Assembly: GCA_947372105.1 (NCBI GenBank)
Contig: CANBSH010000012.1
Location: 1-51,271 of the forward strand
Direction of reading: 5' to 3'
From: Chitinophagaceae bacterium
Lineage (GTDB): Bacteria > Bacteroidota > Bacteroidia > Chitinophagales > Chitinophagaceae
Length of the DNA stretch: 51,271 nt
Shown: positions 15,439-18,295 of the stretch, piece by piece
Layout of the letters: each line of letters opens with the position of its first letter
How positions within the stretch are numbered: the first letter of the stretch is position 1
Made by a program: the position numbers and the translations under genes
Notes under the pieces: model-generated
Told to the model about the DNA's origin: nothing
Seen by the model: only the letters and a program-made list of their open reading frames with translations
Databases searched by the model: none

Positions 15439-15757
15439 AATATTTACAATAAATGGCTTTTATAAAATAAATTCACTAAGCAGGTGAATGTACGAGCTTA
15501 CTATAAGGTTTTCTTACAAGCTCATACATACGCTTATTTCTTTAACGAAATTATGATGAATGAAGTATGTTTAAGGCCCATTCAATTTATTTTTTGTACT
15601 CATGTTGAATCTAAATAGAGCTCAACAAATTTTTGAAATTTCATTTAGATGCGTTCCCAATGACGATTTAACCTATTGATTTACAATTATTTAAAATTAA
15701 GTTATACAAAATAATATAAAAGTCTATAAAAATAGTAGACAATATAAAATTATTCCC
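15439..15757 (-). other. Intergenic leader with strong hairpins, no protein gene seen
   Basis: This 319-base stretch upstream of the DUF481-like gene has no credible protein gene. It holds a 12-base stem at 15488-15499/15518-15529 and an 8-base inverted repeat at 15609-15616/15643-15650. TTCAC/GTGAA also pairs near 15474-15490. On the minus strand these would fall in the 5' leader of the gene that starts at 15438. I do not recognise a known riboswitch class. Confidence 0.5.
15488..15529. repeat. 12-bp stem-loop in the DUF481-like gene leader
   Basis: Plus-strand ATGTACGAGCTT (15488-15499) pairs with AAGCTCATACAT (15518-15529) over 12 positions: 11 Watson-Crick pairs plus one position that is a C/A mismatch on the plus strand and a G-U wobble when transcribed from the minus strand. 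The loop contains a further TAAG/CTTA pairing. The wobble suggests that the minus-strand RNA, the leader of the gene starting at 15438, is the structured form. Confidence 0.65.
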
Positions 15758-15765
15758 TATCTTTG
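15758..15765 (+). promoter_or_regulatory. -7 promoter box for the tRNA-like RNA
   Basis: TATCTTTG matches the Bacteroidota -7 consensus TAnnTTTG exactly. No good TTTG -33 box is visible at the expected distance. Transcription on the plus strand would start near 15770-15773, just before the structured region that leads to the tRNA-like domain and the terminator at 16044-16078. Confidence 0.55.
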
Positions 15766-15946
15766 TTTTGTCATCAAGAATCCTTGAATGGATGCCAACT
15801 GAGAGAGGTATACTCCGCGGTGGTAAAATGATGAGGACAATATTGTCAAAATAAAAACATTTATATGATGCAATTTTTCATTTCACTCCCAATTAACTCT
15901 CTATATTTTTCAAGAAATTTAAAGATTAATAATATTATCAACTCAT

Positions 15947-16017
15947 TGTCATGTGGCCGAGTGGGAAGGTAAGGGTCAGCAAAACCCTCAACGATGGTTC
16001 GATCCCATCCTTGACAG
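15947..16017 (+). tRNA. tRNA-Cys(GCA)-like domain with A33, possibly a non-translational tRNA mimic
   Basis: The cloverleaf is: acceptor TGTCATG (15947-15953) with CTTGACA (16010-16016), six pairs and one T-T mismatch; D-arm GCC/GGT with AGTGGGAA loop; anticodon stem AGGGT/ACCCT (15972-15976, 15984-15988) with loop CAGCAAA; four-base variable loop; T-arm GATGG/CCATC with loop TTCGATC. U8, A14, G15-C48, G18, G19, A21, T54, T55, C56, A58 and C61 are all present. The anticodon by position is GCA (Cys). The base before it, universally U33, is A; the first pair is T-A; and the base after the acceptor stem is G, whereas tRNA-Cys needs U73. No CCA is encoded. It is therefore either a decayed tRNA-Cys copy or a tRNA-like domain of a regulatory RNA. 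Confidence 0.6.
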
Positions 16018-16043
16018 CTTCATAAGCAAGCAATCGTTAAATC

Positions 16044-16078
16044 GGGCGGTGTTTCTACACTGCCCTTTGCTTTTTTTT
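16044..16078 (+). terminator. Intrinsic terminator of the tRNA-like RNA
   Basis: GGGCGGTG (16044-16051) pairs with CACTGCCC (16058-16065) with one G-T wobble and a six-base loop, followed by TTTGC and eight T at 16071-16078. The right arm and T run lie inside the 3' end of the minus-strand gene (16055-16633), where they encode its Lys-rich KKKQRAV tail. Confidence 0.85.
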
Positions 16079-16633
16079 ATATTGATATCTTGCCCAAAAC
16101 GCAAGTAATAAAATAAGTCCACAAGCTTCTACTAATAACTTTTCTGGATCTATAAAATCAATAGGTCTATCTTTTAATAAAGGGTCCATCACTAATCCAT
16201 GTATTATAAAAATGAGTCCAGTAGCATAAGAAATCACATGAATCCATCTCCATGTTTTTTGTCCAATGGCTTTTTTTATAATTTTTTGAGTAGTAATGAT
16301 AACGACGATTAACGCGACTAAAGAAATGACTCCTAACATCACAAAAATAGGTTGATGAGGCGCCTCTAATGGTTTTAGCAAATGGGAATAACTAAATTTC
16401 GAACTTGGATCTAAAGGAATAATTAACGCATGTATTAAAACTAAAGTCAAGGCAATATAGGCGGTATAATTATGAACATCCACAATTTTAAAACGCTTTA
16501 GAAAGAGAGGAAATTTTTCCCAATAACTTGATTTTTTATAAGCTGTACTTAACATGATACCCATCAAAATATTGAGAGTTAAAACAACAGTGGCTATTAA
16601 TCCTAATATGCCAGAAAGTTCAATAGTTTCCAT
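16055..16633 (-). CDS. Ferric-reductase-like/cytochrome b membrane protein
   Basis: 192 residues with about five membrane helices and four helix-borne histidines placed as two heme-binding pairs: H54 (VDVHNYTAY), H68 (LIHALI), H132 (RWIHVISY) and H145 (IIHGLVMDPL). This is the pattern of the ferric-reductase-like transmembrane domain (MsrQ/YedZ-like). There is no FAD/NAD domain, so it would pass electrons between the quinone pool or a partner and the periplasm. It is divergent from the thioredoxin-ApbE-DUF4266-DUF3570 cluster starting at 16920, consistent with a shared redox role. Its C-terminal codons overlap the terminator of the tRNA-like RNA. Confidence 0.85.
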   Translation of the reverse strand: METIELSGILGLIATVVLTLNILMGIMLSTAYKKSSYWEKFPLFLKRFKIVDVHNYTAYIALTLVLIHALIIPLDPSSKFSYSHLLKPLEAPHQPIFVMLGVISLVALIVVIITTQKIIKKAIGQKTWRWIHVISYATGLIFIIHGLVMDPLLKDRPIDFIDPEKLLVEACGLILLLAFWARYQYKKKQRAV

Positions 16634-16919: not shown

Positions 16920-17357
16920 ATGAAGTTTTTAGTATCCATTTTTTTAGTTTTTTCATTGAATGGAGTTCAATGGGGAACGAATCTTGAACAAGCGCAACAA
17001 GTAGCTCAAAAAGAGCACAAATTTATTTTATTAAGTTTTTCGGGATCTGACTGGTGCGGTCCTTGTATACGTTTACACAAAGAAATTTTTGGCTCAGATG
17101 CCTTTGAGCAATTAGCAAAAGAAAAATTAGTTTTAGTGAATGCCGATTTTCCTAGGTATAAAAAAAATCAATTGCCCGCATCGCAACAAAAAATAAATGA
17201 TGCTTTAGCAGAAAAATATAATAGGAAAGGAGAATTTCCTTTAACTGTATTATTAAATGCACAAGGTAAACTCATTAAAAGTTGGGATGGGTTTCCTTCT
17301 GCACCTAATGAATTCTTAGAAGATATTGCACAATCTATTCAAGATAACCAACAATAA
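16920..17357 (+). CDS. Exported thioredoxin-family protein
   Basis: 145 residues. A short hydrophobic leader (MKFLVSIFLVFSLNG) precedes a thioredoxin fold with the WCGPC active site (C46 and C49) and a cis-Pro region (GEFPLTVLL), followed by GKLIKSWDGF. It resembles Thioredoxin_7-type periplasmic disulfide reductases. It is the first gene of a compact operon; the ApbE gene starts 2 bp after its stop. A likely role is keeping periplasmic cysteines reduced, for example those of the Cys-Gly-Cys tail of the DUF4266 lipoprotein two genes downstream; that pairing is an inference from context. Confidence 0.88.
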   Translation: MKFLVSIFLVFSLNGVQWGTNLEQAQQVAQKEHKFILLSFSGSDWCGPCIRLHKEIFGSDAFEQLAKEKLVLVNADFPRYKKNQLPASQQKINDALAEKYNRKGEFPLTVLLNAQGKLIKSWDGFPSAPNEFLEDIAQSIQDNQQ

Positions 17358-17359
17358 TT

Positions 17360-18295
17360 ATGTCATTGTTGAACGCGCATAAGAAATCAATGAAATTAAT
17401 GGGTAACCATTTTGAAATCACAGCAGTGGGTTTCACTGAAAAATGGGCGCATGAAAAAATTGATTTGGCTGTGCGTGAGATACAAAGAATTGAAAGTTTG
17501 CTCACTACTTATCATCCTGATAGTGAAACAAATTTAATTAATGCTCAAGCTGGGATGGCGCCGGTAAAAGTGAGTGCTGAAATACTTCAACTTATTGAAA
17601 GGTCCATTCGAATTTCTTCTGTCACACAAGGGGCGTTTGATATCAGTTATGGATCGGTGGATAATAGTTTGTGGAATTTTGATACTACTATGACTCAATT
17701 GCCCGATCCTGCTATAGCAAAACAAAGAGTGCGTTTAATTAACTATAAAAATATTGTAATTAATAAAGAAGCCTCTACGGTATATTTAAGAGAAAAAGGT
17801 ATGCGTATTGGTTTTGGGGGAATTGGCAAAGGCTATGCTGCAGAGATGGCAAAAAAAGTGATGATAGAAGCGGGGGTAGAAAGCGGTGTAGTAAATGCTT
17901 CTGGAGATTTAACCACCTGGGGTAATCAACCCAACGGAGAAAAGTGGACGATAGGCATTGTGCACCCTGAATATGCCAATCAGGTTTTTTCTTACATGAA
18001 TGTGAGTGGGCTTTCGGTGGCTACTTCTGGTAATTATGAAAAATTTATTCTCATAGATGGGAAAAAATATTCTCATACCATCAATCCTAAAACTGGCTTA
18101 CCGATTACTGGCATTAAAAGTGTTACCATTGTTACTACGAATGCAGAAATAGCAGATGCTATGGCTACTCCTGTAATGATTATGGGAATTGATGCTGGCA
18201 TTGATATGATCAACCAAATTAAAGATATAGAAGCGATAGTGATTGACGACAATAATAAATTATACGCATCTAATAATATTAAACTCACCAAATAA
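17360..18295 (+). CDS. apbE: FAD:protein FMN transferase (ApbE family)
   Basis: 311 residues with the family landmarks: SLLTTYHPDSETNLIN (46-61), the FAD-binding FGGIGKGYA (152-160), NASGD (179-183), HTINPKTG (239-246) and the metal-binding ADAMAT (265-270). ApbE attaches FMN covalently to Ser or Thr in D-x-x-(S/T)-G-A-(S/T)-like motifs of exported proteins, using FAD. Unlike most Bacteroidota ApbE proteins it shows no signal peptide or lipobox: the sequence starts MSLLNAHKKSMKLMG and goes straight into the fold. The downstream DUF4266 lipoprotein, with its EGASGAN stretch, is the obvious candidate target. Confidence 0.92.
   Translation: MSLLNAHKKSMKLMGNHFEITAVGFTEKWAHEKIDLAVREIQRIESLLTTYHPDSETNLINAQAGMAPVKVSAEILQLIERSIRISSVTQGAFDISYGSVDNSLWNFDTTMTQLPDPAIAKQRVRLINYKNIVINKEASTVYLREKGMRIGFGGIGKGYAAEMAKKVMIEAGVESGVVNASGDLTTWGNQPNGEKWTIGIVHPEYANQVFSYMNVSGLSVATSGNYEKFILIDGKKYSHTINPKTGLPITGIKSVTIVTTNAEIADAMATPVMIMGIDAGIDMINQIKDIEAIVIDDNNKLYASNNIKLTK

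Follow-up and report, generated by a model that had tools for sequence, protein, structure and literature searches.

The tRNA-Cys-like locus and its surroundings

The window, i.e., the whole analyzed stretch of 51,271 nucleotides (contig CANBSH010000012.1 of a Chitinophagaceae bacterium), contains a compact locus with the following features, all on the forward strand.

15722..15740 (+): palindromic predicted operator GTCTATAAAAATAGTAGAC, 0 mismatches to the shared pattern
15758..15765 (+): -7 promoter box TATCTTTG, recognized in the sequence
15766..15863 (+): SAM-I/IV riboswitch aptamer (RF01725), 49.5 bits against a gathering score of 41.1 (Rfam)
15865..15972 (+): 35-codon open frame 3' of the riboswitch that overlaps the start of the tRNA-like element (frame scan)
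15947..16017 (+): tRNA-Cys-like element with A33, U1-A72, and G73 (ARAGORN, Rfam, pairing, covariation)
16018..16018 (+): encoded C74, common to most tRNA genes of the same genome and to 36/36 A33 relatives
16026..16040 (+): conserved 3' tail GCAAGCAATCGTTAA, with the tail core at most 120 nt away in 35/36 A33 loci
16044..16077 (+): intrinsic terminator with a hairpin at 16044-16065 and a following T-rich run; hairpin pattern in 34/36 A33 loci

An earlier note on this DNA had described a nearly perfect tRNA-Cys(GCA) fold between a promoter box and a terminator. Both the box, which we take to be a -7 box of the Bacteroidetes type, and the hairpin with its T-rich run are found on the two sides of the element, but the riboswitch, the operator, and the tail had been overlooked, and the sulfur control that the riboswitch and the sulfur-linked operator suggest had been absent from that description.

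ARAGORN recognized 15947-16017 as tRNA-Cys(gca), in exact agreement with the proposed coordinates and strand, and placed the end at 16018 with C74 included; it was the only tRNA called in the window. On a short stretch around the element, the Rfam tRNA model RF00005 scored 48.5 bits (gathering score 29). The element was absent from the output of the Rfam scan of the whole window at the gathering score. Rfam scans of long loci of relatives lose true matches, and absence from them is no evidence: with locus L032, scans of the long locus gave nothing, and the short stretch gave 48.0 bits for the riboswitch and 46.2 bits for the tRNA.

The acceptor arm has six of seven pairs, with U1-A72 as pair 1-72 and U6-U67 as the mismatch, and the anticodon and T stems are fully paired (5/5 each). 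The anticodon loop reads C32-A33-G34-C35-A36-A37-A38, and the 3' end carries G73 and C74, which confirms the A33, the G73, and the single acceptor mismatch claimed before. The minimum-energy fold of the element as a single sequence is no cloverleaf, but the genome's own canonical tRNA-Cys gave none either, and this result therefore carries no weight in either direction. Bacterial cysteine identity is described to reside in U73 and G34C35A36 (PMC9976931). When the window copy is compared with a functional tRNA-Cys, the GCA cloverleaf is there, and U73 and U33 are replaced by G73 and A33. Since most tRNA genes of the genome encode C74, the C74 of the element fits a normal 3' maturation. ARAGORN labels such genes as ordinary tRNA-Cys, and annotated tRNA sets can therefore mislead.

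A gene for a ferric-reductase-like membrane protein (16055-16633, reverse strand) overlaps the terminator with its 3' end, and genes for thioredoxin-like and ApbE proteins lie beyond it (16920-18295, forward strand). A comparable thioredoxin-like frame is also present downstream at locus L111.

Second copies of tRNA-Cys within the genus

The genome to which the window belongs (2.2 Mb in 84 contigs, 97.9% complete) holds a normal tRNA-Cys gene on contig C14 (G000:C14:48232-48302) with the loop CTGCAAA, the pair G1-C72, and U73, and the tRNA-like element is therefore a second copy. The other tRNA-Cys that the earlier note had proposed to look for is this one canonical gene.

With a pattern in which GCA was fixed and C1 and C73 were excluded, tRNA-Cys(GCA) matches were found in 55 of 61 genomes of the same genus, and a non-canonical second copy was found in 35 of the 61, as counted from the strict-pattern list. 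This copy has A33 in 20 genomes, always together with G73 or A73 (20/20), and U33 in 15 genomes, always together with U73 (15/15). The same pattern detected a canonical tRNA-Cys in 17 of the 20 A33 carriers; the other three genomes (G004, G005, and G015) are 77-88% complete. Copies starting with C1 (L082, L101, and L110) were missed by the genus pattern and are present in the set of second-copy rows used below. Many of the U33/U73 second copies sit under the same operator, and some also have G1-C72 (e.g., L057 and L092); as far as their sequences tell, these copies of 15 of the 61 genomes look able to decode. U33 is present in all 21 canonical tRNA-Cys rows.

Spread beyond the genus and common traits

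We scanned the genome collection with a pattern that fixed a Bacteroidetes-like D arm and the whole loop CAGCAAA and left base 73, the tail, and the operator free. Of the 46 matches, 36 are full tRNA-Cys-like sequences, all of them in Bacteroidetes records: one each from Foetidibacter luteolus (L113) and Niastella yeongjuensis (L133), and 34 that are near the sequence of the window. Of these, 25 carry G73 and 11 carry A73, and C74 is encoded by all 36. The tail is at most 120 nt away in 35 loci, the terminator-hairpin pattern is present in 34, and 33 loci have an operator with at most one mismatch no farther than 300 nt away. The three loci without such an operator are L113, where the site has three mismatches, L142, where only 40 nt upstream are available, and L133, where the operator lies farther away and heads an operon. 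A gene of carbonic-anhydrase type (Pro_CA, L113:4519-5130) separates the tRNA-like element of Foetidibacter luteolus from the tail and the terminator.

Nine of the ten remaining matches are outside the tRNA pattern. The tenth, L132:6554-6628 from a Hyphomonadaceae record, is a tRNA-Cys according to ARAGORN, with A33, C1-G72, U73, and an encoded CCA, and a tRNA-Gln gene adjoins it. It would be either a separate A33 case outside the Bacteroidetes or a matter of sequencing or binning.

In the family, the strict A33 pattern matched 6 of 294 genomes and 3 of 101 genera. A search that had the T arm and the tail as its sole fixed parts matched 17 of the 294 genomes and 11 of the 101 genera, and the reversed pattern gave no match. 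Subtraction of the window's own copy, a tRNA-Ile (L239), and another tRNA (L233) left 14 tRNA-Cys-like sequences. As GCA was fixed in the patterns used for the genome collection, the genus, and the strict family search, its constancy there is no evidence, and only this T-arm/tail set counts: without a fixed anticodon loop, GCA was kept in 13 of the 14 sequences. Base 33 in this set is U in seven, A in three, C in two, and G in one, with the loop lost in one sequence (L238), and base 37 is C in 5 of the 14. G73 is found in 13 of the sequences, and the remaining one (L242) has U73. Of the two hallmarks that had been named, the loss of U73 thus held up, but A33 as a defining trait did not, because base 33 varies. 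A33 is therefore just one form of a broader relaxation at the decoding positions, and the loss of the cysteine discriminator is what the members more generally share.

The tail motif (CATATG)GCAAGCAATC with a terminator also occurs at L214 (C32:238-250 of the same genome), L059, L233, and L239. The combination of tail and terminator is a putative rare shared 3'-end module.

Evidence for selection

The alignment across relatives and the covariation test that the earlier note had suggested revealed a conserved locus. Over 34 distinct members, with U73 forms excluded, 97.4% of the cells in the cloverleaf are paired, and two-sided changes are found at 13 of the 20 pairs. None of 500 shuffles, which do not remove relatedness, was as high, and slid controls paired at 45.9% at most. 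With respect to further pair types, 26 of the 500 shuffles reached the observed value.

The window was also compared with 21 relatives (22 minus L138). The tRNA-like element is 87-93% identical, tail and terminator are 76-91% identical, and the operator stretch is 66-89% identical, whereas identity in the leader is 11-73% and in the downstream DNA 51-67% (20 of the 21 relatives, as L115 has no downstream value). The earlier preference for a mimic under selection over a pseudogene is borne out by the conservation within the genus and across genera, by the compensatory pair changes, and by the identity above that of the flanks.

Phage records searched with the element gave no match, the two matches of the pattern in viral contigs contained no tRNA according to ARAGORN, and one Parageobacillus plasmid record contains a 47-base match; a phage-borne or plasmid-borne element was set aside.

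Operator and sulfur control

The loci were grouped into rows, each a distinct locus defined as the tRNA plus 30-nt flanks; the rows come from related species and hence are not independent. For the 21 canonical rows we relied on a sequence motif, plus a manual assignment of L060 from another family of the order. L193, L235, and L238 are outside the row-set pattern. Of the 67 second-copy rows, 50 have an operator with at most one mismatch in the 300 nt upstream, and in 41 of them the site has 0 mismatches; because L110 entered this set through the operator search alone, the count without it is 49/66. The canonical rows have the operator in none of 21 cases, and the best site near any of them has at least four mismatches.

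In several loci, genes precede the tRNA-like element and the operator heads the whole operon, with 0 mismatches in L226 and L232, one in L133 and L053, and two in L056. In L133, the operon has two genes, with the tRNA-like element at its end. The site in L229, with three mismatches, is weaker than these, and none was found at up to three mismatches in L230 and L231 or within the examined stretch in L051, L193, L208-L210, and L242. The operator-headed operons of L133, L226, L232, and L056, which belong to several genera, contain a CarboxypepD_reg-like gene and/or a membrane protein; the latter resembles a sterol-desaturase relative by eye, and Pfam detected nothing in its first 90-100 residues. 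L096 showed just the operator and such a gene.

Operator-like sites with two mismatches are present upstream of an S-box SAM riboswitch (79.9-89.7 bits) in L109, L159, L160, and L167. What follows in L109, L160, and L167 is a frame similar to PLP enzymes of cysteine/methionine metabolism, as checked by Pfam for L109 (PF01053), and the first frame after the riboswitch in L159 is short and unrelated to such enzymes. Two-mismatch sites were also found upstream of peroxiredoxin and DUF4395 frames and of others without an evident link to sulfur. In the genome of the window, the operator pattern at two mismatches gave 6+1 matches versus 4+1 with the reversed control, and this chance background means that two-mismatch sites alone mean little.

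SAM riboswitch and the short frame

By sequence pattern, the aptamer core was found upstream in 13 of 45 A33 rows, and each of these 13 belongs to the group of 25 rows that have U1-A72 and G73. These counts rest on the sequence pattern, as Rfam scans of long loci lose true matches. L127 was missed by the pattern and scored 45.6 bits with Rfam, and L138 seems by eye to have a divergent aptamer copy. The aptamer is above the Rfam gathering score in the window, L032, L035, L037, L116, and L127. In other members of the U1-A72/G73 group (e.g., L036 and L137), only fragments are found in the leader, and the operator and the tRNA-like element remain. L039, L041, L042, L114, and L157 have no riboswitch, and the promoter box nearly abuts the tRNA-like element. 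The riboswitch between operator and tRNA-like element looks like a later addition in the subclade of the window.

L038 has a frame of 137 codons (1079-1492) between aptamer and tRNA-like element, with DUF192 at an E value of 0.045, below the cut-off. In the other 12 rows, the frame after the aptamer has 6-37 codons, and some of these frames overlap the tRNA-like element. In view of the frame in L038, the 35-codon frame of the window can be read as the probable remnant of a longer riboswitch-controlled gene, and the shorter frames in this position elsewhere likewise seem to be vestiges of the L038 frame.

Interpretation and alternative explanations

The element in the window very probably belongs to a conserved family of second-copy tRNA-Cys-like RNAs of the Chitinophagaceae that is placed in the sulfur (cysteine/methionine) regulon. 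In all likelihood, most members lack the features for charging with cysteine (U73 and G1-C72), many also lack U33 or A37, and the fold, C74, and GCA are kept. We read the family as a new one of sulfur-regulon tRNA-Cys-like RNAs that are predicted to be mostly non-decoding.

What such an RNA might do is suggested by two aspects. Depending on the lineage, the tRNA-like element is found by itself, downstream of genes, or upstream of a gene, and the operator is the constant part, which fits a product that acts in trans. Further, GCA is kept in members in which U33, A37, or U73 is lost, a set of changes that would be affordable for an RNA bound by cysteinyl-tRNA synthetase without being charged or taking part in decoding. 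A trans-acting ligand or decoy of this synthetase is therefore our best guess for the mechanism, albeit a tentative one that we would not call probable; the identity of the family and this mechanism taken jointly also fall somewhat short of being probable. According to this proposal, scarcity of sulfur amino acids would free the operator, and in the subclade of the window the SAM riboswitch, unoccupied at sulfur shortage, would allow the RNA to be made. Cysteinyl-tRNA synthetase would bind the RNA in trans via GCA and the tRNA core, and R73 would cause poor charging. Formation of Cys-tRNA would then be lowered or the enzyme redirected, and cysteine would be spared. The conservation, the covariation, the lost identity elements, and the shared operator/riboswitch context are direct observations; expression, the direction of the regulation, binding to the synthetase, and the resulting effect are inferred. 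L238, which has no GCA loop, counts against a synthetase ligand that reads GCA, and so do, for the mechanism as such, the seemingly decoding U33/U73 second copies under the same operator.

More specifically, the RNA could be a sulfur-gated brake, a dud tRNA-Cys that occupies the synthetase via GCA at low cysteine, methionine, or SAM, throttles Cys-tRNA, and saves cysteine, which we regard as possible but rather unlikely in this precise form. The same doubt applies to the variant in which the enzyme would instead be freed for side activities such as persulfide synthesis, a known side activity of cysteinyl-tRNA synthetase. To our knowledge, no naturally occurring tRNA has been described that acts as a synthetase decoy and is controlled by two metabolite-linked elements in this way. 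The genome of the window has one PF01406 match above the cut-off, i.e., one cysteinyl-tRNA synthetase; a second one was rejected as a candidate, since the only further match (19.4 bits) is below the cut-off.

The proposed synthetase ligand has to be weighed against an unlikely alternative, in which the tRNA-like element would help to structure, stabilize, or process (by RNase P or at the 3' end) a larger regulatory RNA, whose active part would be the conserved tail GCAAGCAATCG in front of the terminator, pairing with target mRNAs. The near-constant tail and its conservation together with the terminator in the 21 relatives would fit this view, and the Bacillus cereus tRNA-Other, which resembles a tRNA and is part of a longer RNA under metal control, is a precedent (PMC3399842). 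However, the tail is unspecific, as it also ends a tRNA-Ile (L239), another tRNA (L233), a non-tRNA locus in L059, and another such locus, L214, in the genome of the window; moreover, the promoter box abuts the tRNA-like element in several riboswitch-free loci, and a scaffold needs no GCA, yet the T-arm/tail set keeps it almost throughout. An improbable alternative is a special aminoacyl carrier that would be charged with cysteine or, after an identity switch, with another amino acid, and used off the ribosome. C74 and the tRNA fold are kept, the selC* tRNA-Cys with A1:U72 and a dedicated CysRS* shows that acceptor ends can be altered (PMC7609411), and the tRNA-Trp gene of the same genome starts with A and ends with GTGC and thus has A1-U72, G73, and C74 as many members do. 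Nevertheless, U73 as a major determinant of cysteine identity (PMC9976931) is absent, pair 1-72 is mismatched in part of the members, and only the one synthetase scores above the cut-off.

Even less credit can be given to a regulated tRNA-Cys isoacceptor that would still decode and tolerate A33 and G73. The U33/U73 second copies in the genus, many of them under the same operator, are in its favor, but the losses are combined, with A33 always accompanied by G73 or A73 and U33 always by U73, and C33, G33, C37, or a missing GCA loop occur in other genera. The patchy occurrence of the strict A33 pattern in the family is what could be expected if the element had no function and were a recent pseudogene or had survived by chance. 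In this case, pairing and sequence should be free of constraint, but neither is, and the covariation, the identity above the flanks, and the linkage of operator, tail, and C74 led us to reject a pseudogene as very improbable.

Comparison with known systems

Among the open-access papers listed by our literature searches, no title or abstract described this tRNA-Cys-like RNA. Most tRNAs without a role in translation have been described as single cases; here, a family is found across several genera, which reveals the released features (33, 37, 73, and 1-72) against the kept ones (fold, C74, and GCA) and ties them to sulfur control. If the reading as a synthetase ligand is true, cells would tune the charging of one amino acid by a decoy RNA.

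Staphylococci possess non-proteinogenic tRNA-Gly copies that are specialized away from the ribosome and charged with glycine. A specialization off the ribosome is also predicted for the present family, but here the determinant of cysteine charging is lost.

The nearest apparent precedent is the tRNA-Other of B. cereus, a pseudo-tRNA within a Fur-regulated RNA (PMC3399842). Both are tRNA-like elements with a non-translational role, which is a prediction in our case, on a transcript under metabolite-linked control, and the operator, the box, and the terminator give the window copy a regulated promoter and a terminator of its own at the sequence level. tRNA-Other is described in the B. cereus group only, with flanking sequence, whereas the present family spans several genera, is Cys-like, and has a sulfur operator, covariation, and, in one subclade, a SAM riboswitch.

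The selC* tRNA-Cys (PMC7609411) is likewise a non-standard tRNA-Cys, and some of its members share A1:U72. It is built on an 8/4 acceptor/T architecture with U73, and certain groups possess a dedicated CysRS*. In contrast, the present family has a 7/5 architecture and mostly R73; the window copy has a 7-bp acceptor, a 5-bp T stem, and G73. No counterpart of the dedicated CysRS* described for groups with A1:U72 was found above the cut-off in the genome of the window, the only one checked in this respect, which has one CysRS.

The leader at 15766-15863 is a member of the SAM-I/IV riboswitches (RF01725) by its score. Its position is different, as a short frame and a tRNA-like element follow in place of an intact gene of sulfur metabolism.
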